A stretch of 64,000 bases of DNA from Margaritifera margaritifera (taxonomy: Eukaryota; Mollusca; Bivalvia; Unionida; Margaritiferidae). A program made the position numbers and the translations under genes. This document shows, piece after piece, positions 18,676 to 64,000 of the stretch. Where the stretch lies: contig JAQPZY010001621.1 in assembly GCA_029931535.1 (NCBI GenBank), forward strand, positions 3,696,001 through 3,760,000. The letters run 5' to 3'. The notes under the pieces were generated by a model that saw nothing but the letters and a program-made list of their open reading frames with translations, made no database searches and was not told where the DNA came from. Every line of letters starts with the position of its first letter. Position 1 is the first letter of the stretch.

Positions 18676-18731
18676 TGTATGTATGTATGTATGTATGTAT
18701 GTATGTATGTATGTATGTATGTATGTATGTA
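18676..18731. repeat. (GTAT)n microsatellite, 14 units
   Basis: Tetranucleotide array. The equivalent site in copy 2 (about 55269-55288) has only about five units. Confidence 0.95.
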
Positions 18732-19386: not shown

Positions 19387-19449
19387 TTATTTGTGTTTTT
19401 CAATCATCTCCCTTAGTTTGCTTTCATTGGCCCCAACAAGTTCATCTAT
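19387..19449 (-). CDS. TXN-B exon 5 with stop
   Basis: On the minus strand the acceptor is CATTTTCAG. It encodes 20 residues, [11 protein letters not shown] to EKHK, then TAA. It supplies the last beta strand turn and the C-terminal helix. Confidence 0.93.
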   Translation of the reverse strand: MDELVGANESKLREMIEKHK

Positions 19450-28400: not shown

Positions 28401-29238
28401 GGCTGCTGTTCCTCAAACACAGCTCGATATGTGTATTCGATGTGGGAATGTTTATACAGACTTGATACTTCATTGTTGTGTTGCTTGTCCTTATATGTCG
28501 GATTTCAGAAACTCTTTCTGGGATTTCCTGACTGATAACTTTCCACTGAGCCTGCATATTACGTTATTTAATGCAGAAGATGAGCTGCTACTGCAATATC
28601 TTCTAGGTAAAAGGTTACCAGCAGGTGTAATCGACAAAGAAAACTCCAAGTTATTCGCCCTGTATGCAGCATACTTTGTCATGCAGTGTGCAGCTATCTT
28701 CTGCAAATAAGGTACTTAAACTTGCAACTTATGCAGCTGAGGAACACTTTAATGATGGATATACTGTAAGAATCTATGTTCTAGTATTCTATTTTATATC
28801 ATAGACGAACAATGTTATGATATTCACACTATAGATCTCTTGACATTATTGTATGTACGAAGTAATTGATGTTGGTTCTACGGCGCCCCGGATTCACAGT
28901 TTGCTTTTTTTTTTTTTTTTTTTTTTTTTAATTCGTGTTTGTTTGTTTTGTATTCATTTCTTTATTCTGGTACTTATTTATTGATTGTATTCAGATGATT
29001 TATTGTTATATCATGCAATCTTCTACGGAAGGAAATAAAGATGATGATGGTTAAAAGAAAAACTAACATGCTTTGTGTTTTCTTTTTTAAAGAATGATCA
29101 ATACTTTTCGAGGTGATCAATACTTACCGGAGTTTATGCGTGATGTGGAGTAAGAAGAGTAGGCCTTATTCCGCACTCAACTTTTTAAAAATTATTTTAC
29201 ACTCCTTATTCAAAAGGTAAATAAAATACAGGTGTCAA

Positions 29239-32300: not shown

Positions 32301-33304
32301 ATCAAGCAATATATGAAAATGAGCAGGTGCAAATCATCTGGCAAATAATGCAGAAAAAGCATTTAAGCAACGTCCAAAATTGTGCTTTATTTACCTTTTT
32401 GGCCTTGGTAACTGCCTTTTAATGTGAAAACAAATTGTTTGAACATCTGTGCAATTTATTGCAAATTTAATTTACTATCAAAGAATAACAGGTATAATCC
32501 ATTTGCTCCAAACATGAAAAGATATATTCAAATGAGTCAGCAGTGATATTACCCCCACTCTCCCCCACCCCCCGTTTGCCTGTCTATGTCACACCCACCC
32601 CATGGACTCGTTACTCCCATAATCAAATCCTTTTCTCACAACATTTCAAAGAAACCAGGCAAATGACAGGGGCGGATCCGTGGGGGCCCGAACCCCAAAA
32701 ATAAGTGCCAAACAACTAGAAACTTTCTTAGAGCAAGTTTTTGTGTACAGTTAAATGGTTAAAATTATGCCCCGGAAACGCTTAAAATGCAGGAGCTTCC
32801 GGTAGCTTCGCCCCCAAGGCCCCCACCAGGGATTCCATCCCACAGATCCCTTGCCTACTTGTTAACGCCCCGCGCCACCCCCACCCCAAACGCCCAGAAT
32901 GATAAAACCTGTTTTATTTCCGTGTTAAATATCGTCGATATATTCCAGAGTTTCTTGCGCAAGATTTGCAATATTAAAAATACATTTTAAAAGGTAATTT
33001 TTGAAATTTAAAAACTAATACCCTATTGTGACATAACTTCGACGGTCTTTACTTCTCTACAAAAAGTAGTTCGCATTCAGTTCTAGTTAATAAACCAGAT
33101 AATGAGAACATGACTATAAATGTATGTATACCTAGGGCTAATTGAGCTGTTCCAAAAGTAGATTTTTACGATCTACCCGACTATTACAACATATGCCCCG
33201 AAACCTCTACCAGTCTAGCATATGAATATATTACATATCGTACCTAACTGAAGTAAACACAAGTATAACAGCGAACTTACGGCGTTTTGTACTACTCGCA
33301 CCAT
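19387..33304 (-). CDS. Thioredoxin TXN-B, complete, five coding exons
   Basis: Cytosolic thioredoxin, which reduces protein disulfides by a dithiol exchange and is itself recharged by thioredoxin reductase. Exons on the minus strand are 33304-33281, 27202-27098, 25392-25333, 24908-24843 and 19449-19387 (8, 35, 20, 22 and 20 codons, then TAA), all phase 0 with GT/AG borders. The 105-residue product has the usual length. It starts MVRVVQNA and shows buried Asp26, catalytic WCGPC at 31-35, VDVDE at 57-61, cis-Pro75 in MPTFQF and GAN at 91-93. Cys69 is present; the positions of vertebrate Cys62 and Cys73 hold Val and Ala. Introns are about 6.1, 1.7, 0.42 and 5.4 kb and are full of repeats. The 3' part lies in the segmental duplication. 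No organelle signal is visible. Confidence 0.95.
19945..20365. mobile_element. Fold-back element, copy 1 (partly deleted)
   Basis: The left arm, from TTGCAGGAATACATGCAA, pairs with the right arm ending in TGTATTCCTGCATGGTT at about 20159. The inner arms CACAAACTGACCCTTG and AGGGTCAGTTTGTG meet almost directly. Within the right arm is a second hairpin (about 20258-20350) with arms ATGCTGTGCAAACT and AGTTTGCACAGCGTTTTT. By comparison with copy 2 (56507-57795), the outer left arm and about 38 bp of the inner left arm are missing here. Confidence 0.8.
20541..20717 (-). other. 58-codon open island in TXN-B intron 4
   Basis: A minus-strand frame includes [20 protein letters not shown] and reads up to a TAG. 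The homologous stretch in copy 2 (about 57940-58115) is open over most of its length with one indel near the end. Codon differences between the copies are mostly amino-acid changing, so it looks unconstrained. I do not recognise the sequence and see no splice sites that would join it to TXN-B. It may be an old pseudogene or transposon fragment. Confidence 0.35.
21209..21618. mobile_element. Double-hairpin MITE, copy 2, with nested insertion
   Basis: The ends TACCGTATGTACTCGC and GAGTACAGACGGTA are inverted. Two hairpins lie inside: arms ATAGACCCAGATCTGCCG and CGGCAGATCTAAGTATACGC, then ACATAGACCTTGATCTGC with a weaker partner. A hAT-type MITE is nested at 21405-21595. The partner in copy 2 of the duplication is 58594-58804, without the nested insertion. 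Confidence 0.82.
21405..21595. mobile_element. hAT-type MITE (191 bp) with 8-bp target duplication
   Basis: The ends are CAGTGCTGGATTA and TTAATCCGGCCCTG (inverted, CAG...CTG). Flanking 8-mers CTTAAAAG (21397-21404) and CTTACAAG (21596-21603) match at 7 of 8. Copy 2 of the duplication has a single CTTATAAG at the same point, an empty site. The 8-bp duplication and terminal CAG are typical of hAT transposition; no transposase is encoded. Confidence 0.87.
22285..22735. repeat. 55-bp minisatellite, about 8 copies
   Basis: The unit includes CAAGTATTAACTACAACCAT and TTTAATGTTCATTTGTATGG. Copy 2 of the duplication has about five copies at 59445-59725. Confidence 0.92.
22795..23370. repeat. 38-bp minisatellite, about 15 copies
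   Basis: The unit is ATATCAAGGTTTAATTATTA then TATCATGTTAAACCTCTG, each carrying one GATATC-like site. The partner array at 59762-59975 has only about five units. Confidence 0.93.
23756..23900. repeat. 47-bp minisatellite, 3 copies
   Basis: The unit includes CATGGACTTGTTAAAGGGTC and GAGTTGTACTAGTCAGTGTC. Copy 2 of the duplication has a single unit at about 60720-60770. Confidence 0.92.
24358..24547 (-). mobile_element. tRNA-derived SINE with 12-bp target duplication
   Basis: Read on the minus strand it starts GTGAGCCGCGGTGACTCAGT (tRNA A-box region) and has a B box GGTTCGAATCC (complement of 24482-24492). A body with TGTCCTTGGGCAAGCCACTT and a tail rich in CCAAACC follow. TGAGTTGTAAGT (24346-24357) and TGACTTGTAAGT (24548-24559) flank it. 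Copy 2 of the duplication has one TGACTTGTAAGT at about 61197-61208, an empty site. The TGTCCTTGGGCAAG block is of the kind conserved between metazoan SINE families; the family is not assigned. Confidence 0.92.
24843..24908 (-). CDS. TXN-B exon 4
   Basis: Minus-strand acceptor TTTTTTTCCTAG, donor GTATTA (weaker than consensus). It encodes residues 64-85, [20 protein letters not shown] then KK, with cis-Pro75 and the only non-catalytic cysteine, Cys69. Confidence 0.93.
25333..25392 (-). CDS. TXN-B exon 3
   Basis: Minus-strand acceptor TTATTATTTCAG, donor GTAAGT. It encodes residues 44-63, [20 protein letters not shown], the strand carrying the conserved VDVDE. Confidence 0.93.
25451..27097. 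other. TXN-B intron 2, repeats
   Basis: It holds a GA-rich run at about 25516-25552, the diverged dispersed-repeat copy at 26140-26290, and a fragment of the GACCTTCAACC-type repeat at 26850-27000. The duplication homology ends at its right end near 25450. No exon was seen. Confidence 0.6.
27098..27202 (-). CDS. TXN-B exon 2, catalytic WCGPC
   Basis: Minus-strand acceptor CTTTTATTTAAG, donor GTAGGT. It encodes residues 9-43, including [20 protein letters not shown]. Asp26, Trp31, Cys32, Gly33, Pro34 and Cys35 are all present, so the active site is intact. A LINE begins within about 45 bp of its acceptor. Confidence 0.96.
27247..29055 (+). mobile_element. 5'-truncated LINE, open reverse transcriptase frame
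   Basis: A single frame of 487 codons (to the stop at 28708) starts inside the reverse transcriptase domain, so there is no endonuclease and the start is not a native [23 protein letters not shown] is followed by LADDISLLA, the catalytic box with Leu where Phe or Tyr is more usual. A C-terminal Cys/His cluster begins [16 protein letters not shown]. The 3' tail ends GGAAATAAAGATGATGATGG, with a poly-T tract at about 28905-28929. The frame is uninterrupted, so the insertion is fairly recent. It is antisense to TXN-B in intron 1. LINE clade not assigned. Confidence 0.88.
29239..29321. repeat. (TA)n(TG)n compound microsatellite
   Basis: About 21 TA then about 20 TG units, within TXN-B intron 1. 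Confidence 0.95.
29322..31089. other. TXN-B intron 1, no exon seen
   Basis: Mostly unique AT-rich sequence. A short stretch at about 30808-30960, with GGTTTGGTTTGGTTTT followed by AACCGGGAAAACCCAGAG, may be a repeat fragment. Confidence 0.5.
31090..32330. repeat. About 250-bp diverged tandem repeat in intron 1
   Basis: Around five diverged units share, in order, TGCAGTCTACAGAAAATTTA, a TTTTTAAATGATAC-like block, GAAGAAATGCATAAAAC, GTATTTGACAGTT and AGATAGAATTTTATGCT. One unit is interrupted at about 31632-31790 by a GC-rich repeat. Units differ by substitution and truncation, so the array is old. Confidence 0.75.
31632..31792. repeat. GC-rich insertion with poly-G
   Basis: A poly-G run (about 31636-31658) is followed by GTTGCCCCGGGCGCCAGAGG and later CCGGGCGCCATTTACCCTTG. 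Composition is unlike the surrounding AT-rich repeat, so this is a transposed segment. Similar GGGGCGGATC- or GGGGCGAATC-bearing bits occur at about 32669 and 33780. Confidence 0.6.
32331..33280. other. TXN-B intron 1, distal part
   Basis: It contains a repeat-like GC-rich stretch at about 32668-32850 (GGGGCGGATCCGTGG to CCCCACCAGGGATTCC). No exon. Confidence 0.5.
33281..33304 (-). CDS. TXN-B exon 1 (start codon)
   Basis: ATG at 33304-33302 encodes MVRVVQNA, and the donor is GTAAGT. This start gives a protein of exactly 105 residues, and the N-terminus matches the usual first strand of animal thioredoxins. AAGAAGGAAAAAG directly precedes the ATG. Confidence 0.9.
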
Positions 33305-43680: not shown

Positions 43681-43684
43681 CCAA

Positions 43685-44313
43685 GCGGAATCACGCATAA
43701 CCTTATTTTTGATTGGTTCGGAGAGGGTTGCAATATTTCGAAATACCCAGTTGTTTGTTTAAGACGCAATGGGTTTTTATTTTGTTTATGCGCAGTGGGA
43801 GACTATATTATAGAATTAATAGCAGTATTCTTCATTCTTCATGGTTACATTTGGATAGAGAAGTCATAAACGAATTGGTTCATTTTTTGTGTGGGATATA
43901 TTATTCTTTGGAGATCTATTGATATTAATACAGTGCATTTTGGATTAGTACTGTGTCTTCAACTTAATTATTATACAGCTCCGTGGAATTATCGGAAACA
44001 TTTCTAGAACTTGTGAGATTCCATATTTGCATGGATTATTTGGATATAATTTATTATTATCAACACCTTAGCACAGTGAGGGCTACTTCATTCGGAACAT
44101 ACATTCGGAATATTTGGATTAACACCCGGAACAGTGAACTTTAAAACAATTTAGGACTTTTAAGGATATTCTATACTGTAAGTTATTTTTAATTCTTTCA
44201 CTTTGATTGTTTGTTGAAATATTTTAATATTTTAGGAAATTAAAGATTTGTATTTTAAATCTTGAAAGCTTGTTTGAGTCTTTTCTTTTGTTACATAACC
44301 CCTGGTCGTAACA
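43685..44313 (+). repeat. 5' LTR of the Gmr1-like element
   Basis: Homology with the 3' LTR begins at AGCGGAATCACGCATAACC and runs to GTCGTAACA. A true start may lie slightly further left at a TG. The match covers nearly 600 bp in direct orientation. Confidence 0.85.
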
Positions 44314-44321
44314 GAATAAAT

Positions 44322-44339
44322 TGGGGGCTCGTCCGGGAT
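44322..44339 (+). other. Primer binding site, tRNA-Pro type
   Basis: TGGGGGCTCGTCCGGGAT lies eight bases after the 5' LTR. It is the 18-base site used with tRNA-Pro primers in several retroelements, known best from gammaretroviruses. Confidence 0.85.
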
Positions 44340-44541
44340 TAGAAATTTGAATAATTTCTGGATCCGAATTTGAATATTTTGGGATTTAGATTTAATTAAA
44401 TATTTTCGAGGTTTTTATATTTCAGAGACTTTGATACTTCGGAAAGTTTTCTTTTTGGGATTTGAATTTCATTCTTTGAAATGTTAGTGGTCTTTTTGAT
44501 TTCCCGATTAAGAAATAAAGAGAAACGAACAGGCTTTCATA

Positions 44542-45760
44542 ATGACACCCAGTGTAGAGAGTTTCGTAGGTGATCCTACCCAGGAGAAATTTGAGTCCTT
44601 AAAAAAGGACGAATTACTTCAAATTGCTAAACATTTTAGTCTGACTGAAGCTAAAGCTTCTATGTTAAAACAAGATATTAGGAGTATCTTGATACACTAT
44701 TTGGTACAAACAGGTGTATTTGAAGAGGGGGTTTCAAGTGTAAAGAAAAAATCTCCATCTAGTTCGGGAAAGAAATTGCAGATAGCTAAGGACATTGAGT
44801 TAGAAAAGCTCAAACTTCAATGGGAACAAATGCAGATGCAAGAAAGAAGAGAGCAAAGGGAAAAGATTAGGGAAAGGAAGGAAAAAGATAGCGAATTAAG
44901 AGAGAGGGAAAGAAGGGAGGATAAAGATAGAGAAATACAGAAGGAATTAAGAGATAATGAAGTACAGAAGGAATTAAGAGATAGGGAGGATAAATTAAGA
45001 GATAATGAAATACGAGAGAGGGATAAAGAAAGGGAAATACAAGAAAGAAGGGAACAAAGGGAAATGCAGAGAAAAGATAAAGAAATGCAGGAAAGAAAAG
45101 AATATCAGGAACGGGAATTTAGATTACGGGAATTAGAATTAACCAGTAAAGGGCACTCTCATGACAATACGGGTTCATACTTTAACATAGCCAAACATAT
45201 GAGACAGGTTCCCCCTTTTAGAGAAAAGGAGGTAGACAAATATTTTCTCAAGATTTGAGAAAATTGCTGAGAATCTGGAATGGCCGAAAGAGAAGTGGAC
45301 CTCATTATTGCAGAGTGTGTTTACTGACAAAGCTAGTGATGTTTATACTGCACTCTCATCTGAACAATCTGCTGATTATGAAGTGGTCAAAGAATATATC
45401 TTGAGGGCTTATGAGTTGGTACCTGAAACTCATCGTCAAAACTTTAGAGATTGTAGAAAGGAAACTAATCAGACTCATGTAGAATTTGCTTGGGAAAAAA
45501 ACGTTTGTTTACAAGATGGTGTACGTCTAAGAAGGTTGAAGGGGATTATGATAATCTTGAGCAACTGGTATTGATTGAAGATTTCAAGAATTGTGTCAGT
45601 AATGAAATTAAGGTATATCTTAATGAGAAAGAAGTTGAGACTTTAGAAAAGGCAGCCAGCACAGCTGATGAATATTCTTCAATACACAAGGTTCCATTTG
45701 TAAATAAATCTTCCTCTCAACAAGCTTATGTTAAGAAACAATTTCAGACCTCAGGGTGAT
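44542..45760 (+). pseudogene. Gag (capsid part), frameshifted
   Basis: The first frame (ATG at 44542 to 45258) starts MTPSVESFVGDPTQEKFESL and has a very long charged helix, about residues 80-200, built of Arg/Glu/Lys/Gln repeats (coiled-coil-like). It then reaches the capsid entry HMRQVPPFREKEVDKYF. The following frames (45308-45574 and 45490-45759) continue the capsid, with LRAYELVPETHRQNFRDCRK-like text. At least two frameshifts separate the pieces. Confidence 0.85.
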
Positions 45761-46390
45761 GTAACTGTGAGGAATCAAAATTCTGATAAGGACTATCAGA
45801 TCACCTTATCTCTACCCACGTGTTCCTATTGTAAGATGAAAGGACACGTTATTTCTGATTGCTTAAAGTTGGAATATAGGCAACGGAATTTTAATAGAGC
45901 AGTTTCAAATGCTTTAGTTATTAAGAAGTCAAGGTCAGGGTCATATATCAAGGGTGATATTTGTTTGGAGGCTTGCATACCTCAGTCTGATTTTGTAATG
46001 AAGGAATATGAACCATTCATGTCGAAGGGTTCGGTGTCACTTGTTGGTGTCTTGGGTAAGTCTACTCCTATTAAGATATTAAGAGACACAGGAGCTTCTC
46101 AGAGTCTATTGTTAGATAGTACTTTGCCGTTTTCTGAGAAGACTTCTACTAGTGAAAGTGTACTAATACAGGGAGTAGAATGTGGATATGTTAATGTCCC
46201 TCTTCATTGTGTTAATTTTTCATCAGACTTAGTTTCGGGACCTGTGACCATAGGAGCTGAAGCTTCTTTGCATATAAAGGGCATCCATTTATTACTAGGT
46301 AATGACCTAGCGGGAGATAAGGTCGTGGTTAATCCAATTGTAACTGACAAGCATAGCATAGATCAACGAGTTGATCCTATTGAAGTATAA
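45728..46390 (+). pseudogene. Zinc knuckle and aspartic protease region
   Basis: CSYCKMKGHVISDC is a CX2CX4HX4C knuckle (45822-45863). Downstream, LRDTGASQSLLLD carries the protease active-site triad DTG (46084-46092), followed by a retropepsin-like fold ending in HLLLGNDLAGD. The frame is open for 220 codons; continuity with Gag upstream is broken. Confidence 0.85.
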
Positions 46391-47067
46391 ATCCCTGGTT
46401 TAAATCCAGCTTGTGCAGTTACTAGAGCTGTGGCAAAGCATGCTCTTGAGAATGATGTTGTTGAACAGGATGTATTTCCTTTAGCGGACACCTTTTTGGG
46501 TCAGGCTTTTAATGAGGTCACTTTTGCTCCTAGTAAAGTTCAATCAAGTATTGATCACAGTGATACTCTTTCAACTACAAAATCTCATAAAATTAATCAG
46601 GGTGAAATAAGACAAACACTAGTTGTCTCACAACGGGGGGATTCGGATATCTCCTGTTTGTTTCAGGGGGCTATGACTGAAACTGAAGCCACACAAGAAG
46701 GTACTTGTTACTTCTTGAAGAGTGAAGTCCTTATGAGGAAACAGAGGCCGCTTGGGGTAATTGCTGGTGATGAGTGGTCAGTTAGTAATAAAATAGTAGA
46801 TCCTATCGTCAGGAAATACTTAGTGTAGCCCATGAAACGTCGTTGTCTGGTCGTTTAGGAATAAATAAGACTAAGTTAGGCAACCAATACTTGTTGACGA
46901 GGTGTGCGTCACCAAGTTTTTCAAAAGCTATTCCTTTGCGGATTATTAAAACTGAGACCGTAGTGAAAGCTTTGGTCAAGTTTTTCACACTGTTTGGTCT
47001 TCTTAAGTCTATACTATATCAGACTTTAGAACGAATAATTAAAACATTGTTATTAGATAGAGTATAA
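46391..47067 (+). pseudogene. Integrase: zinc-binding entry and partial core
   Basis: The frame at 46430-46828 ends with CYFLKSEVLMRKQRP and GDEWSVSNKIVDPIVRKYLV, the entry to the H2C2 domain. After a shift, VAHETSLSGRLGINKTK (about 46829-46879) provides the histidine region. A jump then leads into core-like text with KAIPLRIIKTETVVKALVKF (about 46926-46985). The segment between, with the first catalytic Asp, is deleted, and the later core is degraded. Confidence 0.8.
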
Positions 47068-47102
47068 TTGGGATTTGTTGTGGAACAGAAAGGGAGTAAG
47101 AT

Positions 47103-47178
47103 GACCTGGTCACCAACTCTTTAGAACTGTGTCCAATTATTGTTGTTTGCTGCGGGGGGGGGGGGGGGGGGGGGGGGC
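47103..47178. repeat. Foreign 27-bp block and poly-G run
   Basis: A 27-bp segment shared with 43157-43183 is followed by about 25 consecutive G bases (47154-47178). Both interrupt the integrase. Confidence 0.75.
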
Positions 47179-47184
47179 AGTGTA

Positions 47185-47397
47185 GGAGTTTTCAGCCAGG
47201 TGATAGAGTATTAGCTCTGCTACCCATACCCCAAAGTCCTCTACAAGTTAAATATTTTGGTCCTTATACCATTCACAAGAAGTTGAGGGATTTAAATTAT
47301 ATTATTAATATTCCTGGGAGGAGAAAGCAGAAACAACTTTGCCATATTAAAATGTTGGAACAATATGTAGACAGAAATAGCCATATAAATTATTGAA
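47185..47397 (+). pseudogene. Integrase C-terminal domain
   Basis: The frame reads GDRVLALLPIPQSPLQVKYF, then GPYTIHKKLRDLNYII and a CHIKMLEQYV end, then TGA. This is the integrase tail typical of animal Ty3/gypsy elements, and it lies upstream of the reverse transcriptase here. Confidence 0.82.
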
Positions 47398-47559
47398 TTA
47401 CTTTAGTAGTACCTGTCCCACACATTCAACATTTGAATGAAGATGAGAAATCTGATAGGATGATTTTGAAGTCACTACTCTTCGGAATTCGAAAATTCTG
47501 GACGATCTGGACCAGAAGCTTTGCATATACTGCCGCCAGAGATTAACGAACTGAAGCAG

Positions 47560-48215
47560 TTGATGAAAGAAAATTAACGTTTATTTCCAGACATTCCACA
47601 CGAACCAACAAAATTTTCTATGATGTCACCTCTCAAACAAGACTATCTGAAGAAAGAGATTCAGAATTTACTGGAAAATGACTTTATTGAACCAAGTAAA
47701 AGTGACTGGAGTTCACCATGTATTTTAGAGCCGAAACCAGATAAGACTTTTCGTATGTGTATAGATTACAGAAAGGTAAATAGTGTCACCAAGACAGATT
47801 AATTTCCAATTCCTAGACAGGATTGGAAATGCCAAATACGTCACAAAATTTGACCTATTGAAGGGATTCTACCAAATTCCACTTACGGAGAGAGTAAAAG
47901 AAATTTCTGCATTCATGACTCGAGATGAACTTTACCAATACAAAGTCGTACCATTTGGGATGAAGGGTTCCCCAAGTTTTCCAACGTTTGATGAAAATGA
48001 TAACATCTGAAATAGAAATAGTGATGCTTACATCGATGATGTCATCATCTGAAACAACACGTGGCAAGATCACATAATAAAGCAATTCTTCAAAAGACTC
48101 AGTAAAGCGAACTTGACCAATTTAAAAGTGACTTTTGTCGTGCCTGTGTTACCTTTTTAGGGCATGATTGTAGGACATGGACAAATAAAACCAATAGAAG
48201 CTAAAGTTACGGCTA
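47560..48215 (+). pseudogene. Reverse transcriptase, Ty3/gypsy type, broken
   Basis: Two overlapping frames (47620-47802 and 47783-48010) carry LLENDFIEPSKSDWSSPCIL, FRMCIDYRKVNSVT and KFDLLKGFYQIPL, then the catalytic AYIDDVII (about 48025-48048) after a further break. Motif order is that of Ty3/gypsy RTs. A stop replaces the codon before FPIPR. The thumb and the connection to RNase H are missing. Confidence 0.87.
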
Positions 48216-48260
48216 TTTCTAAGTAAAATTTAATTGCTGACGCACTTTCACGTGTATAAT
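48216..48260 (+). pseudogene. RNase H tail
   Basis: NLIADALSRV followed by a stop is the conserved end of the RT-RNase H module. It lies only about 50 bp before the 3' LTR, confirming that RT-RNase H is the last pol module. Most of RNase H is deleted. Confidence 0.8.
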
Positions 48261-48310
48261 ACTACCGTTACACTGTTTTGTATACATGACTGCATCATGT
48301 ATTATTTTTA

Positions 48311-48906
48311 AGCGGAATCACGCATAACCTAATTTCTGATTGGTTCGGAGAGGGTTGCAATATTTTGAAATACCCAGTTGTTTGTTTAAGACGTAATGGG
48401 TTTTTATTTTGTTTATGCGCAGTGGGAGACTATATTATAAAATTAATAGCAGTATTCTTCATAGTTACATTTGTATAGAGAGGTCATAAACGAATTGGTT
48501 CATTTTGTGTGGGGGATATATTATTCTTTGGAGATCTATTGATATTAATACAGTGCATTTTGGATTAGTACTGTGTCTTCAACTTAATTATTATACAACT
48601 CCGTGGAATTATCAGAAACATTTCTAAAACTTGTGAGATTCCATATTTGCAAGGATTATTTGGATATAATTTATTCTTATAAATTCGAAACATGCATTCG
48701 GAATATTTGGATTAACTTCCGAAACATTGAACTTTAAAACAATTTAGGACTTTTAAGGATATTCTATACTGTAAGTTATTTTTAATTCTTTCACTTTGAT
48801 TGTTTGTTGAAATATTTTAATATTTTAGGAAATTAAAGATTTGTATTTTAAATCTTGAAAGCTTGTTTGAGTCTTTTCTTTTGTTACATAAACCCTAGTC
48901 ATAACA
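48311..48906 (+). repeat. 3' LTR of the Gmr1-like element
   Basis: It starts at AGCGGAATCACGCATAACC and ends TAGTCATAACA. It lacks a segment of about 25 bp present in the 5' copy at about 44070-44110. Confidence 0.85.
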
Positions 48907-52036: not shown

Positions 52037-52869
52037 ACTAAGATAGGATGTTCTGTATGAAAATCATTTTCTCTATTGCTTGTGTAATATGCAGGTAGAT
52101 TGTTCAGTTAACCGTTCTTTTAATTCAGAGTATTTTATTATTTTTTTTGTCAAGTTTAAGTTGTCCGCACAATTGATTAATATTTGTACAAGTAACTGGA
52201 CTTGAGAATCATAGTAAAATATGCTTTTTATGGTTTTTCAGCAATTTAAAACGGTATCTAAACATCCAGAGAATAGTTTACGCTTGACAAATTATCTTTA
52301 GGTGTTATCAACAAACCAAAAGGTTATCCCTCTATAACGGGAGCTTTTTATTTTCAGCAATATGCAACATTTCCTTAATCCTTTCAAATGAATGAATTAT
52401 TTCAGATTTATGCCAAATTTGGCCTTTCCTATGGTTGCATCTAAAGCAGCTACTTCATATACTGAGTCACCACATGCTATTTTAAATAAACAAATTTCCA
52501 AAAATTCATTCTGTTATTGTAGAATATGTGTAGATTGACCTTGTAAAGTTTATTAAATCTTTGATTTGCGCTGTAATTGTTGCAAAATACAAATTTGTGC
52601 ATTTATTTGCATGAAATATGTAATTTATTCTTTCTTCATATTGTATTGTTTTAACAATCTTGCTATCAGGATTTATTATGCTTTTTTTGTATAAATGCAA
52701 TCTGTAAATCTTCATCTTTTCTGAAATATTGCAGAATATCTTTTTGGATGTTTAAATTGACAATTCAGGATATATATTGTTTAATTTTATTCTGTAACAC
52801 AACTAGCTTTGAGCACAATTTTATCCATCTAAACTTGTAAATAAATACATAATATCTCTAGTTATTGTT

Positions 52870-54640
52870 TTTTGTTGTTTTTAATTGTTTTTCCTTGCAA
52901 TGATATCTCTGGTTCGTTTGAAAAAAAGTATATGTTCTACTTTATGGAACCATTATTCAAAAAACAAAACTGAATTATTCAATTTCATTTTTGTTTACTT
53001 GAGTTGCTTTGTACAAAAGTCTTGATAAAAGCAGAAAGAAAATTTTAGGTCTCACATTTGTGGAAACTGCATTAACATTAACTTGGGATTTTGGGCTAGA
53101 AAAAGGTTTTGCAAATATCAAGACTGGTTATCTTGACAAAGGGCTCTGGTCCCGTTCTTGCATGCACTGTCGTCCAAGTAAGGTCAGTCTTATGAGACTA
53201 TTTAAATCTAGTTTAAAACCTGTAATCAGGTAAGAAATTAACCTAAAATGTTTGCCTATTATGTAAATTTTGTATTACTGGTTATGTAGAGTTGTATTAT
53301 TGCAATAGGATCGCTAAAAGCCATGTTAGGGCATGTAAACTTGTAGCATCTTGTGTTCTATATTTCAAGGTCACTTTCCTTTATTGATCATGCACGATTA
53401 TGAAATGAAGATTGCTTTCACATTGCCAGTTTCATAAATTTACTCTTTGCTCTTTTGCTGTGTTAGTGAAAAATAAGTTGTCTATCGTTAAACTGCTCTT
53501 ATTTATGATGATACGACCATGTTAAGATTGTCATATAATAATAGTAAAAATTAAAAGGCTTAAACTAAAAGTTGTGTATATGTGCGTGTGTGCAGGGCGT
53601 ATCTAGGATATTTTTTTTTTCTACAGGGTTTAACTAGAATGGGTTCAGTCCCCATCTAAATCTGCTACTGTGTGTGTGTGATTGCTCGTTTCCCAAATAT
53701 TTTCTCTATGTCATCTTGATACCATATTTCATATAGCATCAGAGAGTGGATTTCTCAAGGACTTGTCAAGAAGTTTATAAGAACTAAAGTTTTCAGAAAT
53801 GTATATTTCCTTATGGAAATTCACCTTTTTCCACCAATTACTTTGTTTATCACAGTATAAATAGGTTCCAAAGCAGAAGAAAAATCATTCAACGGTTACT
53901 TCTTTTTTTCACGATTGTGTTTACCTTTTCCTGAAACCCTAGGTATGTATATAATGCAGTCATTTTACAAAGGCGAGCACAAATAATGCAGACAGAAGAG
54001 GGTTCTATTGAGGTTTTAGTATTGGTTACAGGTGCATGGTGTAATAACTATTTTGTATTTGTTAATGGATAACTTCACTCAGAATTGACCAAGTCCAAAA
54101 CATTACAAAGCTATCTGAAACAACTAGTATAAATGTACAACATATATGTCTTCACACCATAGTAGTCATGATTTCAAACCATAGTGATCACTGATCTTAC
54201 GAGTAACCTCAACTTTACAACTACAGAGGCTAATTAAAAAAACTGAAAGCAAATGTTTTGGACTGGTCAAGTGTTGGTGAAGTTTAGAAACTAAATAAAA
54301 TAGATTGTTTATTCTAGTGGTATTTGATTAAATATGTTTACCTATTTGCAATTACCATAATGTAATATATGTGCTACTAGCAGTTATAATTAATTATGAT
54401 CTATAGTTTCTGTTCATCTTCTCTAGCCATTGGTTGTCCGTCCACTTTGTTCCACATATATGTAGAACTATGTGGGTCATCAACCCGTGGTTAGCGAAGA
54501 CAAGTTTTTGCTGTGCTCATCTGAAGTCATATGTTCAAAATGCATTGTGTAATGACCAGAGTGTGAACATGAACCTTAAATCTTTCGCGAGGTTGTTATA
54601 CTCATTCAGTGTTCTTTGCTGCTTCTGTTAGTTTCATGTT
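52870..54640. other. Copy-2-only segment
   Basis: Homology with copy 1 is lost from about 52870 and resumes near 54650 at TTCCCCATGTTCCTCATAC. Copy 1 has only about 260 bp of partly different sequence between the matching points. No gene or named transposon was recognised. It may be an insertion here or a deletion in copy 1. Confidence 0.6.
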
Positions 54641-55940
54641 TATAACTTGTTAGGTTTTCATAACTTTGGGTGATTTTCCACAAGAATGTTCCCCATGTTC
54701 CTCATACAAATTGGATATTTTGTATTACCCTGGGGATGTAAAATTTTGACAATATGAGAATGAGCGGATTTCAAACTAACATGGCATATTCCTAGTATTA
54801 GATATGCTGAAGCTACACTGGTGACAACAGCAAAAATCCTATTGATGAATGGAAGATTGATTCGGAATTCGATCTGGAGTAGATCCCACTCACACACACA
54901 CAACATACACACACATGCTAAAAACCCATCTCTGTTGGATCATCGTACAATCAATCTGACTACGTGTTTTACTGCTTGTGAATCAGATAAACCTGCTTTC
55001 ATACCTAATTAATTCAAAAAGTATTGATATTCAGTACAATAAAATCAAACGGTGACCACAGTGTTAATTATAATTGATCAACATGTACTCTTTAGTTCTA
55101 CATTCACTGTTGTTATGACAATGGCGTATCTGCTGTTAGTTCCCACAAGTAACTATATAACAGCATTATGTAAAATCAATCCACAAAGAATGATCATTTA
55201 AAGTAGAATCCCTTAATTGGATGAAACAGAATTCTTTTATTAATTCACCCATATAACCAAAATGCCAATGTATGTATGTATGTATGTACAAAAATCAACT
55301 ACAACTAGATTCATATGAAAACATTTTACTCTGGAAAGTGATTGCTAAATATAAATCAATGTATGTACATACATGTATGCATGATAAACTTGATTCATTA
55401 TTAATGTAAATATAACAAATGATAGTTAATATTTTTTCATAATACTTTGCCAATGTAATTATTCTCTTACTAGTAAAATAGTTCTAGCAGAAAACATTAA
55501 AAGTATCACACATTTAGAAAAATGTAAAAAAATGAATTCTTCATAATAAAATAACAGAATAGAGTGCATTGGAAGTTTCTTGTTTGTTTTGTGGTCAATA
55601 TATGAAGGCATATATAATGCAACTGTCAATGAGTAGCAAAACTTCCCAGCTATAGTGAATACCTTGACTTGACAATACATTTTGATATGTAACAGTATCA
55701 GCTGTGTCAGAGCCAGGGCAACTGGGCAAATGGTCACTCTACATTTTATTTTTTTAAAGAGGTGATAGTATAGACTGACGGCTAATTCGTGCTTCTTACA
55801 AGTTTTCCCTATCCTTGATGGAGCCAGCACTTAATAGATGTTAAAATAACATTTTTCGTGTCCATGAGAAAGAACAATTATTAAACTTAATCAAGTTTAA
55901 AATCATTCATTACATGTACTAGAAATAAGTATGTTCCTTG

Positions 55941-56003
55941 TTATATGTTTCTTTTAATCATATCCCTTAGTTTGGTTTCATTGGCCCCAATATGTTCATC
56001 TAT
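55941..56003 (-). CDS. TXN-C exon 5 with stop
   Basis: Acceptor CATTTTCAG as in TXN-B. It encodes IDEHIGANETKLRDMIKRNI and TAA. All eight base differences from TXN-B exon 5 change an amino acid. Confidence 0.85.
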   Translation of the reverse strand: MDEHIGANETKLRDMIKRNI

Positions 56004-57224
56004 CTGAAAATGAAAAAAGTTAAAGAACAATTATGATTTTGGAATATTTATTTCTATAAAGGTCAAAAGCTTGTGTCTATGAGTACAGATACCCTTTGGC
56101 TAAAACTAACATGGTGAATGGGGCCTCCCTAACTTTACTTGACTGGAAAAATCACATGCCTAACAATTGGTACAGACTGTTCATTCTTTAACAAGTAGGT
56201 CATTTGAACATTCTGCAAGAATAATGGCAATGTTATGTGTTTAGATAGGCTTCGATCATGAATTTGAGACAAGGATCTGTTTCATAAATACCAAGACTTG
56301 CCCAAATTTAATATGTACCTACATGAAAGGCTAAGTATGTGAAATTTGCCATTATACTCTGAATCTTCGATAAGTTGATGAATCCCCAACTCCCTCTATT
56401 TACTATCAGTCCATTATGTATATTATTTATTCAAAATTCCAAGTTATTTCCAGTCAATTTTATCCAAGATAATTTGTGAACAATTTAATTCAGGACAAAC
56501 CATTTATTTTTGATGTTCAGTGAAGTATGAACCGAGAAACACGCTGTGAAAACTGTTAGGATCCCCTCGGATCATACTAAAATTTGCACAGTGTTTTTGG
56601 GGGTTCATACTTCAGTGAACATAATTAATAAAGTGGTCAATAAAGCAAAATAATGGAAAATTCTTTAAAAAAGTGTATTAAACTGACCATTTTAACCTTG
56701 TATAACCTTGCAGGAATACATGCAATATAGCAATCAGTATCTGTAATCTGCATACAGCCAATCAGAAGATGGCAACCAGTGCCTGACAACAATGACACAA
56801 ACCAACCCTAGAGTTTCAGCTGCTCCCCACCCTTTCCCCGACATTTTGACAACCATCAAGGACAGGTTCTACTGTTTTCAACATTTTGACAACCATCAAG
56901 GACAGGTTCTACTGTTTTCAACATTTTGACAACCATCAAGGACAGCTTCTACCGTTTTCAAAGGTGAGTAGGCTAAGGTCCTAACCACTGAAATCTACAA
57001 AGTCAAAACGTTGTGTGTGGGGGTGGGGCAATCAGCTAAAACTAAAGCCAGTATTGGGATTTATAGAGATGGTATGTGTGTTTTTTGAATAAATTCAAAT
57101 TATGGATAGACCCTGATACAGCAGAAAGTAGAACATAACCTGGCGGAATTGAATTGATGAGTTCTTGACGAGCTGTTTCAAGAAGTCATGTTATTTTTGA
57201 CTGTTCAGTCTTGCAGTGTCAGAA

Positions 57225-57262
<38 letters not shown>

Positions 57263-60200
57263 TTTAGGTTACATATACACAGAAGCACATTTCCAGTGGA
57301 TGCTGTCCATAAAAAATACATAGATCTAAATTTGATATGGTCCCTTCATTTGGTATTTGAAATTAATGTTGCATTTTAATCATGTCTCATGTATTTTTCT
57401 CCACCATGGATTTCACTTTGGGTACTTGGACTATATAGTCCAATGGAGACTGCTCATCTAAAAATTTAATCACTATAGGTCAGTTTGTGCCATGTTGTCA
57501 GAAAACTGGTTGTCGTCTTCTGATTGGCTGCATGCAGATTACTGATACTGATTGCTACTTTTAATGTATTCCTGCATGGTTAGACAGAGTTAGAATGGTC
57601 TATTTAATAAAAATTTTCAAAGATTTTCATTATTTTGTCTTTATTAGATGTAAAATTTAGTTATAAGGATTGACCAGTTCATTTTTTAAGTATGAACAGA
57701 AAAAAATGCTGTGCAAACTTTGCATGCTCCATTTTGTGGATCACACAGTTTGCACAGCGTTTATTCAATTCATACTTCAATAAATGTAACAACAAAAAAT
57801 AAACGGTCAATCCTTATATAACTTAACTATTTCAAATTCAATTTGCCTGAAATGTTCACAACTAACCAAAGATGTGTCTTTAATAACGTAGCAAAATTGT
57901 CAAAACCTATTTTTTTTTAAAAATTGGTTTTAAAGAAAATGGAACCGATAATATGTAGGTGTGTTTATCTAGAATTGGACCAACCATTCTCACTTCACCA
58001 AGATGCATAAAGGGGATCATCTTCTCCATTTTAAGGCAGTACTTGTCTGCATTTGCAAGGGCATCAGTAAAATTACCGACTTCAAAATAAATAGCAATAG
58101 CTGCTAGTTACACAAATAAAATTTCATAATGGCTTGGAAAGATCCCAACCTTTTTTTTAATTAATTTTAATGTGAATTCAGTCTTACTCAACACCAAAAT
58201 TCCCAATGAACTGCTATGAGGATTAATGCTTTTATCTTTACCATTTACACAATAGAATCAGTGCATGCCCGTCATTCTTCTAATTTAAAAAACAAAATCA
58301 TACACTAAAAATATCAAGTGCATTGCTTCATTGCCAGTGGTGGAAAAATATGATGTCTGGCAGCAAGGGACAAGTTGCCAATTTTTGCTGGGAAGTAAAA
58401 TTCTATTACTTGCCCAGAACTGTAAAAAGAAAAGGAAGGACAAAGCGGGATATTTGCTAAAGTTTATCAAAATCATGATTCTGGAAAAACAGAAAAGTTT
58501 AGCATTTTATCAACCCTGACTGTGCATAAAATGGTGTTAAATTGCAATACTAATGAATATGTACAATATGTGTAATTGATTTACTTTTTAAAGTACCGTA
58601 TATACTCGGTTATATTTTGGATTCAACTGCAAACTTCATAGAACTAGATCTGCCATCATACAATGTGCTGGCAGATCTAGGTATATGCAGTTTGTTAGGA
58701 GTAATCAGTAGAATAAACAACACAGACCCTGATCTGCAGGCGCATTATGCAACGGCAGATCAGGTTTGCAGTTGGATTCGACTTATAAGCAAGTACAGAT
58801 GGTAAATCAAAGATCATGAGAACAGTTCTATCAAGAAGACGCTAAAAGCTAATTCAAACTAGACAGGAATCCTGACATATCAGAGAGCAATTATATTGTA
58901 TCTAAGTCTTGGTTGGATACAGCAACTGATAGACAAGTTACATAACTTAAAAAACAGAAACTATTTCAAATACAGAATCTAAACCTTGTTGATGACGAAA
59001 TCACTGTTACAGATGCCGCAGGAAAACAGATCCCCATATCTTGCCTATGCTTCAAAGGAGAGACAAAAAAAGGATTTTTCTATAGCTCAAGCTGTTTTGC
59101 TTAAAAGATTCCTCAAAAATGCCCTAACTTTAATCTGTAATTCATTTCTCCAGGTTTTGGAAATTAACCTCATTCATAACCACTTTTTATCGGTGCATAA
59201 TCTTTTATGTAATGGCATTCTAATTAGGTTTAAAACTGGACATGATGCATGTAACAGTATCCTGTCCAGCACCTAAGAAGAATAGAATATAATTTCATTA
59301 AACACACCAAGAATTACATTGTTTGCACCTTGTACACTTTCTTCGGCACCCAGGAGTGGACTAAAGCATATGTTAGATTTATATTCAAGGAATGTCAAGA
59401 CAGGCCATGATGACTGTGTTTCAAAGGATGGAATCTATGGCCTCCAAGTATTAACCTCAACTATGTTGATGTTTATTTGTATATAGATTACGAATAATAC
59501 CCAAGCTTTAACTACAACCATTTTAATGTTCATTTGTATAGATTACGGATATTCCCCAAGTATTAACTACAGCCATTTTAATGTTCATTTGTATAGATTA
59601 CGGATATTCCCCAAGTATTAACTACAGCCATTTTAATGTTCATTTGTATAGATTACGGATATTCACCAAGTATTAACTACAGCCATTTTAATGTTCATTT
59701 GAGTTGATTATGAATAGTCCACTTGCCTTCTTTTTAGAACAATAAACATTTTTCTTAAATCGCAGATATCAAGTTTTAATGGTTATCTAAGGTCAAAACT
59801 TGCATATCAAGTTTAAACCATTATGTAATGTTAAACTTTGGATATCATGTTTTAATTGTTAAACCTCAGATATCAAGGTTTAATTGTTATATTATGTTAA
59901 CCCTCTGATTCACCTTTTAATTATTACATCATGTAAAAAGTTCGGATATCATGTTTTAATTGTTATATCATGAACGTCTCTATTTGAAGATGTGTGTTAA
60001 AAGCAACTCCCCATAGTAATATTTAGCGATTTCCCAGGAATAATTTGCAAATTAATATTAATAAATAGCGTAATATCCCAAAACATGCTCGTTTTACTGG
60101 ATATATTTTGTACCACAATAAGCTGCTTTCCATGTGGTAGAAATGCATCCTTTTTATTACAATATATACTCATGTATAAGCCAAATAATTTAGGAAAAAA

Positions 60201-62039
60201 TAAACACCTGGAAGATGGGAGGTCGGCTTATCCGTGGGCCAAGGTCTATTATAGCTGTACTAACACCATATAAGCCATTAACTAGGTCACCTCAGTACAT
60301 GAGGACCTAGGGATTCAGGTTAGAATGGTATATATGTATGTGTGTGTTGTTTTGAGTAATTTTACCTGTTTCCTCTATTTCTTATTATATTTCATCTTAT
60401 ATGTCATCTCAGACTTATGGGTCGGCTTATGCGCAGGTCATGCACTTTTTAATGTTTTTACCTATTCAGTTTGGGGGGTCGACTTATACGTGAACGGGTT
60501 TATATGTGAGTATATATGGTACTTTTTAAGTACTACTAAATTTTTCCTAAGTTTTCTTTACCGGAATTTAATTCTAAGGTTCTTTGTTCTTTAGTACCAG
60601 AAGAATCTCATTCAAATAATGCAATATCGTCGCCAAATTTTTACAATTTAAGTGAGATCACAAGGGATTCATAAACAAACAAATGAATGTAAAAGAAACA
60701 TCTCTAGTTCTCAGTACAAAAAAAATATGGACTTGGTAAAGGGTCAAGTTGCATGAGTCAGTGTCCAAGACCAGTGAGGCTAAGTTAAAAATATCTAACA
60801 AAATGCTTCGATGCGGTTTCATAATAAATACCCCCAGTATCCAACTGTAATCATCAGGACAACATGTTAAAGTATGGAAAAAGGATTTTCTTGGAAACAT
60901 CTAACACATTTTTAATTTGATCGTTTAAAAAAAACGACAAATATATCATGGTGACTGGCAAAGAACTGTTAATTAATCAATTCAAGGCTATTTGATCAGA
61001 AAAAAACTTTGGCAATATGGTTGCCTAACTTGCTAAGAATAGATGCTTGCTAATTGTCTAATTCGAGCATGTGATAACCTTAGAAAGCCACTTGATAGCG
61101 TTAGTTACACTGCATTGGATAGGAGAGATAAGGTTACGCATTTGTGTGCCAGAAGAATTGATTCTGATTTATTTTACTCTTTGTTATCATTGGGCATGAC
61201 TTGTAAGTAAAACTGGTTGCAATGACTAAGTACCCTACATATGTTTAATACTGAATGTTGAGGTACACTTATGCACCCATGGAGAGAATAAACACCACTA
61301 CTAACAATTTTGACCTAGATGTGTCGTCGCATAATATACCAGCAGATCAGGGGTCAGTGCTGCTTGTATGAAATCATGCAACAGAGTAAACTGTAAATTA
61401 CTACCGCAGTAACCGACGACACATTTCAATTTACACAGCTCACATAGGAGGGTGGTATACTCGATAAATTTCAGTATAAAGTCTAAATACCTTCTCTCCA
61501 TTTCTGTAACACTGGACTGTTGGCATTGCAGAGATCCCAGCATTTTTTGGTACTTCCTATGTAAAAAATGGAGAAAAAGAAACATTTGGAAAATAAAACA
61601 ATTATTACTACTTCAAGTTTAGGACAGATGTAATGAAGCAAGTTTGTTAATATTAATTTTGCATGTGAAAGCAACGACAAAAACTTGTTTTGAGACTTGC
61701 ATACACCAAAACTCTGACTTTAACTACTTATTGACTGAAAATTGGAACATATAATATTTAATTGAACTGTTATTTTAATAGCTGGGTTTCCATAGTTACT
61801 TATGGCTTCTATGGTGACAGGACCAAGTAGAGACACGCATCTGATGACAAGATTGAAACGACGATCAGAGTCATACTGTTGTGTTTCTCATCTACTGTTA
61901 AATTCCAAGACATTTTACTCCCAAATGCATGGTTTGGATAAATCTTCTAAAACGGAATTGCAGAATAGACATGACTTACCTCCACCTCATCCACATCTAC
62001 TCTCAGGAAAATTGCATCAGTGAACACTCTAGCCATATT
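55941..62039 (-). CDS. Thioredoxin TXN-C, exons 3-5 (5' part not seen)
   Basis: Paralogue of TXN-B created by the segmental duplication. Minus-strand exons are 62039-61980, 61556-61491 and 56003-55941 (20, 22 and 20 codons plus TAA), with intact GT/AG borders, phases and frame. Kept features are VDVDE, cis-Pro in SAMPT and GAN. By TXN-B numbering Cys69 is Ala, Phe77 is Val, Phe79 is Cys, and the C-terminus is charged differently (KRNI). Of 62 residues, 24 differ from TXN-B, with only two purely synonymous codon changes. Exons 1-2, including WCGPC, are not in the remaining 2 kb on the right, and homology to TXN-B intron 2 stops just past exon 3. The gene may continue beyond the window or may be a 5'-less duplicate. 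Confidence 0.82.
56507..57795. mobile_element. Large fold-back element, arms about 320-340 bp
   Basis: The left arm (56507-56825) and right arm (57455-57795) are reverse complements along their length with many small differences. Matching blocks include ACCTTGCAGGAATACATGCA with its partner TGTATTCCTGCATGGTT, and CAATCAGTATCTGTAATCTG with its partner. Each arm carries its own inner hairpin, GAAGTATGAAC...GTTCATACTT on the left and AAGTATGAACAG...ATTCATACTT on the right. A spacer of about 630 bp separates the arms. No protein is encoded. Confidence 0.82.
56842..56961. repeat. 40-bp minisatellite, 3 copies, in fold-back spacer
   Basis: The unit is ACATTTTGACAACCATCAAG then GACAGGTTCTACTGTTTTCA, nearly identical between copies. 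It is absent from copy 1 of the duplication. A (CT)n(CA)n microsatellite lies in the same spacer at about 57226-57262. Confidence 0.92.
57940..58115 (-). other. Intronic open island, copy 2
   Basis: Partner of 20541-20717. It reads [20 protein letters not shown] and continues open, with one indel near the end. Unrecognised. Confidence 0.3.
58594..58804. mobile_element. Double-hairpin MITE, copy 3 (no nested insertion)
   Basis: Same ends and hairpins as 21209-21618, but CTTATAAG is uninterrupted where that copy carries the hAT MITE. Confidence 0.82.
59445..59725. repeat. 55-bp minisatellite, about 5 copies
   Basis: Partner of the eight-copy array at 22285-22735. Internal units here share CCAAGTATTAACTACAGCCA and GGATATTC, not found in the first array, so the units have been homogenised separately. 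Confidence 0.9.
59762..59975. repeat. 38-bp minisatellite, about 5 units
   Basis: Partner of the 15-unit array at 22795-23370. Only the outer, more diverged units are represented. Confidence 0.88.
60161..60522. mobile_element. MITE with ATATACTC ends, absent from copy 1
   Basis: The left end AATATATACTCATGTATAAG and the right end GTGAGTATATATGG are inverted. GGTCGGCTTATCCGTGGGCC and GGGTCGACTTATACGTG inside resemble each other. TAC is found on both sides. Copy 1 of the duplication reads straight through, TTTTTATTACTTTTTAAGTA (about 23547-23566). An 89-codon frame crossing its right end is not a gene. Confidence 0.82.
61491..61556 (-). CDS. TXN-C exon 4
   Basis: It encodes 22 residues, EVPKNAGISAMPTVQCYRNG then EK. 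cis-Pro kept, Cys69 lost, a new Cys at position 79. Donor GTATTT. Confidence 0.85.
61980..62039 (-). CDS. TXN-C exon 3
   Basis: It encodes NMARVFTDAIFLRVDVDEVE. Acceptor TTATTATTTCAG and donor GTAAGT are the same as in TXN-B. Confidence 0.85.
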
Positions 62040-62339
62040 CTGAAATAATAATAAGTTAAGGAGTTATACCACTGTAAGTAGCATCAAATGCTAGCCATAT
62101 CAATTTCTACTAGATGCCGCCTCCACCCTGAGTTTGACTGGACGATGCAAGTTAAAAATGGAATAACTATGGCAGAATATATGCATGCACATGCGAACAT
62201 GTTAAAAAAAAACATTCATAGTTAGTAGATAAATAAAGGTGCACAACTCTAAAAATCGTCTAAGCATGACAACAAAACGATAAGCACATATTTATCAGGT
62301 ATCAGTCATGTCTGCCAAGCTTCAGGTTAAGTATATATG

Positions 62340-62343
62340 TATG

Positions 62344-62379
<36 letters not shown>

Positions 62380-62394
62380 GAGAGAGAGAGAGAA
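62340..62394. repeat. (TA)n(GA)n microsatellite
   Basis: About 15 TA units followed by about eight GA units. Confidence 0.93.
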
Positions 62395-62403
62395 GTAGGG
62401 CAA

Positions 62404-62543
62404 AAATATATGTATAGTATGTGCACTGTATCTTTGATATATCACAAGTTTTATAAAAGTTTAAAAGGAAACGAGGCTTGCAGAGTTTCCTTTTAAGTGG
62501 TATATCAAAGATACAGTGTACATACTATACATATATTTTATTT
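62404..62543. mobile_element. 140-bp palindromic element
   Basis: Arms of about 43 bp with two or so mismatches: ATAGTATGTGCACTGTATCT on the left pairs with AGATACAGTGTACATACTAT on the right. The centre has a second inverted pair, TTAAAAGGAAAC and GTTTCCTTTTAA. No coding capacity. Likely a MITE or fold-back element. Confidence 0.8.
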
Positions 62544-62891
62544 ATACCACATACAAATACACATACTTTTGCTCCAATGGAGTTCAAGACTGACTACAGG
62601 AAACTGTGTATTGACGGAGGAAATTTACTCTTCACATTCCTTACCAGCATGTCTGCCTCAAAATGTACTTCTGCAGGGATTGTAGCTATTCACAATCCTT
62701 TGGGAAATTGTTAATTTGCTTCTTGTTTGAGTTTCTGTTTTCATTCATATTGATTAAATAAATAAAAGAGGTGCTTAGGATTTAAACATGAAAGTTGGTA
62801 TAAATGAAGAAAACAGAGCACTACAAACATTGAATGGTTAGCATCCAAAGGAGTGAAAGCATGGCCATTTGATGACTGGCGAGTACATCAA

Positions 62892-63148
62892 AATGAGTGG
62901 GGGAATAGTCTAAGTGAGTGGGGGAATAGTCAAAATGAGTGGGGGAATAGTCTAAGTGAGTGGGGGAATAGTCTAAGTGAGTGGGGGAATAGTCTAAGTG
63001 AGTGGGGGAATAGTCTAAGTGAGTGGGGGAATAGTCTAAGTGAGTGGGGGAATAGTCTAAGTGAGTGGGGGAATAGTCTAAGTGAGTGGGGGAATGGTCT
63101 AAGTGAGTGGGGGAATAGTCTAAGTGAGTGGGGGAATAGTCTAAGTGA
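62892..63148. repeat. 21-bp minisatellite, about 12 copies, open in frame
   Basis: The unit is GTGGGGGAATAGTCTAAGTGA in phase-shifted form, nearly invariant. Because 21 is a multiple of three, the plus strand encodes a repeating SEWGNSL heptapeptide and the minus strand RLFPHSL, both without stops. No splice sites or gene context support translation. Confidence 0.93.
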
Positions 63149-63429
63149 CCAACAAGAGGTCATTCATCCATTTATAGTTATTTACAGTTGATCTAAGGCA
63201 TTGTTATGTTTGACTTACCATTGCTACTGACCATAACATGGTTTTAATCCTCTCTCTCCCTGCTGGTCGGTTGTCTGCCAGTTTTAACATCATAGGGTAA
63301 AACTGACATGCTGACTGACCAACCAACAGAGCGAGGGTGTTGGGGGTGCAGGGTGCTTACTATAAGATTGTTTTTATCGTCCATCTCTCTGTTGGTTGAT
63401 TAGTCTGTCAGTTTTACCATCATAGATTC

Positions 63430-63463
<34 letters not shown>

Positions 63464-64000
63464 GGAGAGTGATCAAGGTCAAGTGAGATAAAACTGACAT
63501 ACTGATTCAGGAACCAACACAGACTGAAAGAGAAAGAGGGAGGGAGAGAAACCTTCAGACATTTTAATATTTAAAAATGATCTGTTTTAGTACCTTATTA
63601 TTGGGAAAAAAAACAAAATGAAGCGTAAGACAGATTACAGTATGTGTATGCCAAGGAATTTACCGTTCGGCCTAATCAACTCCACAGCTATTGCAACTTT
63701 GTATTATTGTTATCGTGTAACACTCAGTGTCACCATAGAAAAAAAATCACATGGAAAGTGTAAACATATCATTATAAGTGCTTTGGTGCCTCTAGGTTAC
63801 TTGGTGTAAGTTCAAGTTCAAGGTTTTCATCCAGCTCAAATTCTTTTTTCTCTCTCAAAGATTTCCATGTATTGTGGTAACTTACAGCATGAGAGAGAGA
63901 TATAATAGGGAAAGCAGATGGGAATTTTGAAAAAAAAAATTGTAACATGTTTAATTCATTACAAAACAGGGATTTCTATATTTTCTCATTATTTTCTTAT
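63149..64000. other. Gene-free right edge
   Basis: Two related segments with CTGACATGCTGACTGACCAA and CTGACATACTGATTCAGGAA and short (GA)n runs at about 63428-63464. No WCxxC-encoding exon for TXN-C was found here on the minus strand. Confidence 0.55.

Follow-up and report, generated by a model that had tools for sequence, protein, structure and literature searches.

Can the exons of a duplicated housekeeping gene change faster than the introns that separate them? This question is raised by a 64-kb stretch of the Margaritifera margaritifera genome (contig JAQPZY010001621.1, positions 3,696,001 to 3,760,000; here called the window, with coordinates counted from its first base), of which 66% is A+T. 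Two related thioredoxin sequences, TXN-B and TXN-C, lie on its minus strand (Table 1). Judged from its sequence, TXN-B is the gene for cytosolic thioredoxin-1 and TXN-C repeats at least the last three exons of that gene as a direct duplicate on the same strand. The two segments have the same orientation and are about 35-37 kb apart. Since the duplication, the coding sequence of TXN-B and TXN-C has diverged about twice as fast as the introns and flanks of the same pair, and the excess lies at amino-acid-changing sites. Accelerated, probably adaptive divergence of TXN-C is held, with slightly better than even confidence, to be the best single explanation.

Over exons 3-5, the two copies differ at 33 of 189 bases. 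Twenty-six codons are affected, 24 of them non-synonymously and 2 synonymously, and an earlier note on this DNA had arrived at exactly these counts. The differences number 14, 12 and 7 at codon positions 1, 2 and 3, each of 63. At position 3 the rate (11%) is like that of the introns (Fisher P=0.50); positions 1 and 2 together (20.6%) are about doubled and exceed them (P=3.6e-5, a value that ignores the patchiness of non-coding divergence). In exon 4, BLAST favours two compensating 1-base indels about 8 bases apart, which brings the exon total to 30 substitutions. The 62-residue stretches of both copies carry the same number of charges (9 positive, 11 negative), and a charged residue is involved in 12 of the 24 changes.

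These exons can be measured against the single-copy non-coding DNA of the duplicate, where 441 of 5,095 columns differ, or 424 of 4,900 (8.65%; K = 0.092) once columns at most 2 bases from a gap are removed. Left out of this count were two minisatellite arrays (22285-23368 / 59444-59972), a microsatellite (18675-18731), pieces at 17871-18306 and the poorly matched 23553-24357. The minisatellites are adjacent in intron 4, have units of 55 and 38 bases and are longer in TXN-B (about 8 and 16 copies) than in TXN-C (about 5 copies of each, those of the second unit in two rows of 2.5 and 3.1). Five estimates of exon divergence were made, namely an own Nei-Gojobori count at two settings and the NG86, LWL85 and maximum-likelihood (ML) methods of Biopython. 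They give a non-synonymous divergence (dN) of 0.21-0.24 and a synonymous divergence (dS) of 0.096-0.128. Thus dS is close to the non-coding divergence and dN is about twice both. A codon bootstrap places the confidence interval of dN at 0.147-0.338, and every one of 2,000 resamples exceeds 0.0918. The earlier note had put two intron stretches at about 5% and 9%, and these were measured at 9/201 (4.5%) and 15/144 (10.4%). The comparison of dN with intron divergence that it had proposed finds dN well above 0.092 and the exons more diverged than the introns. Its argument that decay cannot outrun the neutral rate also stands, with dN above that rate and dS hardly so.

How surprising is such an excess? 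The excess is genuine, although a plain binomial would overstate its significance, which is only moderate because non-coding divergence is patchy. Blocks of non-coding DNA range from 5.4% to 12.9%, and the counts are overdispersed (mean 5.1, variance 10.1 per 60-column window). Three random non-coding windows of the exon lengths together reach 33 differences in 0.48% of 200,000 draws (P=0.0048) and 30, the threshold when exon 4 is counted with gaps, in 1.6%. In neutral codon simulations that used the intron substitution spectrum (20,000 runs each), at least 24 changed codons arise with P=0.0002 under a uniform rate and P=0.0071 under a gamma rate with the observed patchiness; given no stop, the value is P=0.0026.

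Is TXN-C a decaying copy or a maintained protein? A pseudogene is expected to change blindly to conservation and at or below the neutral rate, and TXN-C departs from this pattern. Exons 3-5 show no pseudogene signs in the form of stops, frameshifts or lost splice sites, apart from the possible compensated 1-base indel pair in exon 4. Their frames, acceptor AG, donor GT and exon-5 stop are all intact, as had been noted earlier. The 62 residues match the thioredoxin family PF00085 with E=2.6e-9 and 37.4 bits, compared with 98.7 bits for TXN-B and a cut-off of 23.5. The thioredoxin profile score of TXN-C is 113 bits, against 83 (standard deviation 13) in stop-free neutral simulations (P=0.012), and the sites changed in TXN-C are more variable than the simulated ones (P=0.021). 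When the simulations start from TXN-B, the profile score is reached in 0 of 3,000 and site variability has P=0.0027. By BLOSUM62 score the changes are unremarkable (P about 0.5). TXN-C appears to be maintained and not decaying, because conserved thioredoxin positions are spared in it to a greater extent than in neutral simulations. The picture fits a protein that may still be selected for the thioredoxin fold while its variable positions are replaced quickly.

Several results, here and in the comparison with homologues below, weigh against adaptive divergence. The main rival, because exons 1 and 2 of TXN-C are unseen, is that TXN-C is a truncated or relaxed copy and that its exon excess combines lost constraint with a local peak that arose by chance where mutation is patchy. 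This is a serious but rather unlikely alternative. Among contiguous 189-column non-coding windows, 167 of 3,357 (5%) reach 33 differences, all of them in 16988-17274 and 21664-21984. Single windows reach the exon counts in 1.2% (exon 3, 14 differences), 9.8% (exon 4, 11) and 22% (exon 5, 8) of cases; exon 3 bears most of the excess and is the only one that, alone, falls outside the usual non-coding range. Of the five exons expected, TXN-C shows neither exon 1 nor exon 2, the carrier of the CxxC active site, within the window, where it is known as its last 62 codons and the stop. The match to TXN-B breaks off 50 bases upstream of exon 3. The last 1.9 kb of the window (62040-64000) yielded no exon 2 to tblastn (best 40 matches) or low-threshold blastn, and this exon may lie beyond the window. 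Two invariant residues have been lost: K13R and F34V affect a lysine and a phenylalanine present in 120/120 homologues (198/199 each in a larger set), which fits relaxed constraint too. Near-invariant sites as a class are changed at 2 of 12 positions against 3.9 expected (P=0.17; from TXN-B, 4.8 and P=0.062), which is not significant. Open frames are weak evidence, since neutral exons with 30-36 differences lack stops 26% of the time, and the lack of a frameshift by chance has P 0.17-0.41.

The evidence within the exons is marginal as well. The dN/dS ratio is 1.7-2.5 by method (bootstrap P=0.03), Fisher tests give P=0.075 by codon position and 0.046 or 0.116, depending on rounding, for Nd/Sd, and once 30-36 differences and no stop are granted, at least 24 changed codons are ordinary (P=0.29) and at most 2 synonymous codons have P=0.064. 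The strength of the case lies in the excess over the introns; the within-exon split does no more than lean in that direction. Chance and truncation have to contend with three separate exons that total 33 differences despite 100-base flanks of 6/150 (4.0%), 20/198 (10.1%) and 15/199 (7.5%) around exons 3, 4 and 5 (P=0.005, or 0.016 with exon 4 gapped). Moreover, decay fails to explain the avoidance of conserved positions or the intron-like rate at position 3.

On which copy did the changes fall? Among the matches listed, the best relative of both copies is P0001, the thioredoxin of Sinanodonta woodiana (Bivalvia, Unionidae), and several others of the 120 listed are molluscan. P0001 is 73% identical to TXN-B over 99% of the 97 residues searched and matches TXN-C at 38-40 of 62; unlike TXN-C as seen in the window, it comes from a single gene, is complete and contains CxxC. 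A further search, with an alignment of TXN-C, TXN-B and P0001, gave 3,016 matches, of which the best 120 were listed (TXN-C residue 5 is gapped there). At the 24 residues where the two copies differ, P0001 has five states in common with TXN-C and eleven with TXN-B, and 117 unique homologue rows match TXN-B at 10.2 and TXN-C at 2.5 sites on average (9.9 and 2.6 over 199 proteins). Outgroup polarisation, done by hand, places about 19 changes on TXN-C and about 5 on TXN-B (sites 8, 10, 20, 47 and 52; two-sided binomial P=0.0066), with sites 47 and 52 uncertain on the B side and 3, 24, 25, 41, 59 and 61 on the C side. The assumption of a static TXN-B, with all changes on TXN-C, does not hold in full, as about 5 of the 24 residues look B-derived. 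With half of the non-coding change assigned to TXN-C, the expectation is about 5.7 changed codons, and not one of about 7,000 stop-free runs out of 10,000 simulated reached 19; with all of it assigned there, 19 changed codons have P=0.033. Two results of these comparisons count among the adverse ones: a homologue search with TXN-C alone gave no candidate, and among the 199 listed proteins compared none is clearly C-like, 2 being nearer TXN-C than TXN-B by one or two residues of 62.

The homologues also bear on a second alternative, in which the pair is older and gene conversion has made its introns and flanks alike; the exons would have escaped through selection or chance and would only look fast. 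Its strongest hint is the ML tree of the 62 residues (119 unique rows), where TXN-C groups with P0046 (support 99) and Mytilus thioredoxins and not with TXN-B. This placement is read as probable long-branch attraction because the DNA shows a recent duplication; the tree is based on 62 residues with one long branch. The Sinanodonta protein is likewise nearer to TXN-B (46/62) than to TXN-C. The longest identical runs beat permuted data in 3 of 6 blocks (96, 113 and 126 columns; P 0.001, 0.02 and 0.004), although such runs may span single gaps and patchiness of rate would yield long runs too. Set against this, old exons predict a high dS, and exonic dS is like that of the introns, in a comparison of low power. 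Old exons with dS equal to dN would hold 7.4-9.3 synonymous changes, compared with 4.5 observed (a weak test, with P 0.03-0.22 by method and rounding). Divergence also climbs at the exon edges, the 50-base flanks of exons 3, 4 and 5 standing at 5.3%, 7.1% and 8.1%. Conversion confined to the introns, the event that the earlier note had set against its own proposal, is weakly excluded by the intron-like dS, with the long tracts speaking for it; conversion is regarded as improbable.

Exon-specific mutation, for example CpG decay after gene-body methylation, is a third and very improbable alternative. The exons are richer in G+C than the non-coding columns (0.40 vs 0.33), but a mutational cause should raise position 3 too, and position 3 is not clearly raised (7/63). 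CpG decay itself was rejected: of the 180 exonic columns away from gaps, 4 touch a CpG, and outside CpG the differences are 28/176 (15.9%) in exons vs 342/4,684 (7.3%) in non-coding DNA.

What might TXN-C have gained? If its divergence is adaptive, TXN-C would still yield a thioredoxin-fold protein, in which selection would have favoured the replacement of surface residues and some packing residues. Partner binding or redox specificity would be altered, with the cis-Pro loop and GAN turn unchanged, and TXN-B would retain the housekeeping role. Altered partner recognition seems the likeliest gain. The SAMPT (cis-Pro) segment and the GAN turn are kept in TXN-C. The MPT motif, which is taken to be the cis-proline motif before beta-4, is present in exon 4 of both copies, and the residue next to it is changed from F to V in TXN-C. 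By thioredoxin anatomy as it is assumed here, the changes sit in the end of helix 2, strand 3, helix 3, strands 4-5 and helix 4. The proposal of positive selection on a new function therefore survives in part. It is carried by a dN above the neutral rate and by the avoidance of conserved positions, and it is held back by the marginal within-exon evidence, by intron-confined gene conversion as a less probable alternative and by the incompleteness of TXN-C in the window.

There is a slim chance that TXN-C works without redox catalysis, as a binding protein under strong positive selection in which an exon-1-like start would be spliced in frame to exons 3-5 with no CxxC. Such a product is conceivable because the homologue P0122 (70 residues) joins a thioredoxin start straight to an exon-3-like stretch at the same boundary, and so corresponds to exons 1+3+4+5 without CxxC. 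The exon joints of TXN-B are in phase 0, and skipping its exon 2 would preserve the frame. P0122 is Mytilus-like (37/62 to TXN-C, 41/62 to TXN-B), is derived from one 950-base contig and may be an exon-skipped isoform or an artefact.

Table 1. Thioredoxin exons, duplicated segments and other elements of the window.
Feature	Positions	Strand	Remarks
TXN-B candidate exon 1	33281-33304	-	MVRVVQNA, donor GTAAGT; top score of a motif scan; unproven
TXN-B exon 2	27098-27202	-	105 bases; WCGPC active site, at 27136
TXN-B exon 3	25333-25392	-	
TXN-B exon 4	24843-24908	-	
TXN-B exon 5 and stop	19387-19449	-	
TXN-C exon 3	61980-62039	-	20 codons; 14/60 bases unlike TXN-B
TXN-C exon 4	61491-61556	-	22 codons; 11/66 bases unlike TXN-B (or 8 and two 1-base indels)
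TXN-C exon 5 and stop	55941-56003	-	8/63 bases unlike TXN-B
Duplicated segment, B copy	16971-25447		Holds exons 3-5 with introns 3 and 4 and about 2.4 kb of 3' flank; indels and minisatellites break up the matches
Duplicated segment, C copy	52217-62089		
TXN-A fragment	2245-5292	+	Exon 4 (2245-2310) and exon 5 (5230-5292) only
Reverse transcriptase open frame	27247-28710	+	487 residues
Degenerate retroelement	43683-48906		Broken frames between two direct repeats (each about 0.6 kb) that are 91% alike
Minisatellite, first array	7567-7990		79-base unit
Minisatellite, second array	9732-10362		Same 79-base unit, 1.7 kb apart

A third, more divergent thioredoxin fragment, TXN-A, is also present in the window, and no exons 1-3 could be recognised for it in the 2.2 kb that precede it. 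The 487-residue open frame matches reverse transcriptase (PF00078, E=3e-7) and runs antisense to TXN-B, about 45 bases upstream of exon 2 in what is presumed to be intron 1. Between TXN-B and TXN-C lies the degenerate retroelement, whose frames hold what is taken to be a Ty3/Gypsy-like reverse transcriptase motif. A Pfam search of eight further open reading frames in the window had just two results, a reverse transcriptase and a zinc finger whose weak match stays below its cut-off. Searches of the window with Rfam (gathering thresholds) and a tRNA scan gave no matches.

Accelerated exon evolution of duplicates is already known, and the divergence of TXN-C is a new instance of it. Among thioredoxin duplicates in Drosophila, one copy keeps the general role and others are marked as long branches. 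For the germline paralogues deadhead / Trx-1, TrxT and CG13473, testis- or ovary-enriched expression is described (PMC7560327). TXN-B and TXN-C would resemble this arrangement. Unlike TXN-C, which is recent (9% non-coding divergence) and seen as exons 3-5 in the window, those paralogues are old and complete and have known expression. Snake venom three-finger toxins also have duplicates whose introns are more alike than their exons and whose structural positions are kept (PMC2474615). The venom genes change by segment switching, whereas TXN-B and TXN-C are a single pair with a redox-protein fold and single-base changes. Among the papers searched, none joins thioredoxin, gene duplication, positive selection and a bivalve. 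Judged by titles and abstract openings, the entries listed likewise held nothing on topic for thioredoxin duplication in freshwater mussels, for fast-evolving sperm proteins with thioredoxin or for exon-skipped thioredoxin.

When the coding DNA of duplicates changes faster than their introns, this is direct evidence of adaptive divergence for which no clock is needed, and a housekeeping redox protein is an unusual setting for it. In this young pair, the introns and flanks that can be aligned amount to about 5 kb and supply an internal neutral yardstick, which makes the neofunctionalisation of a thioredoxin testable in a bivalve.

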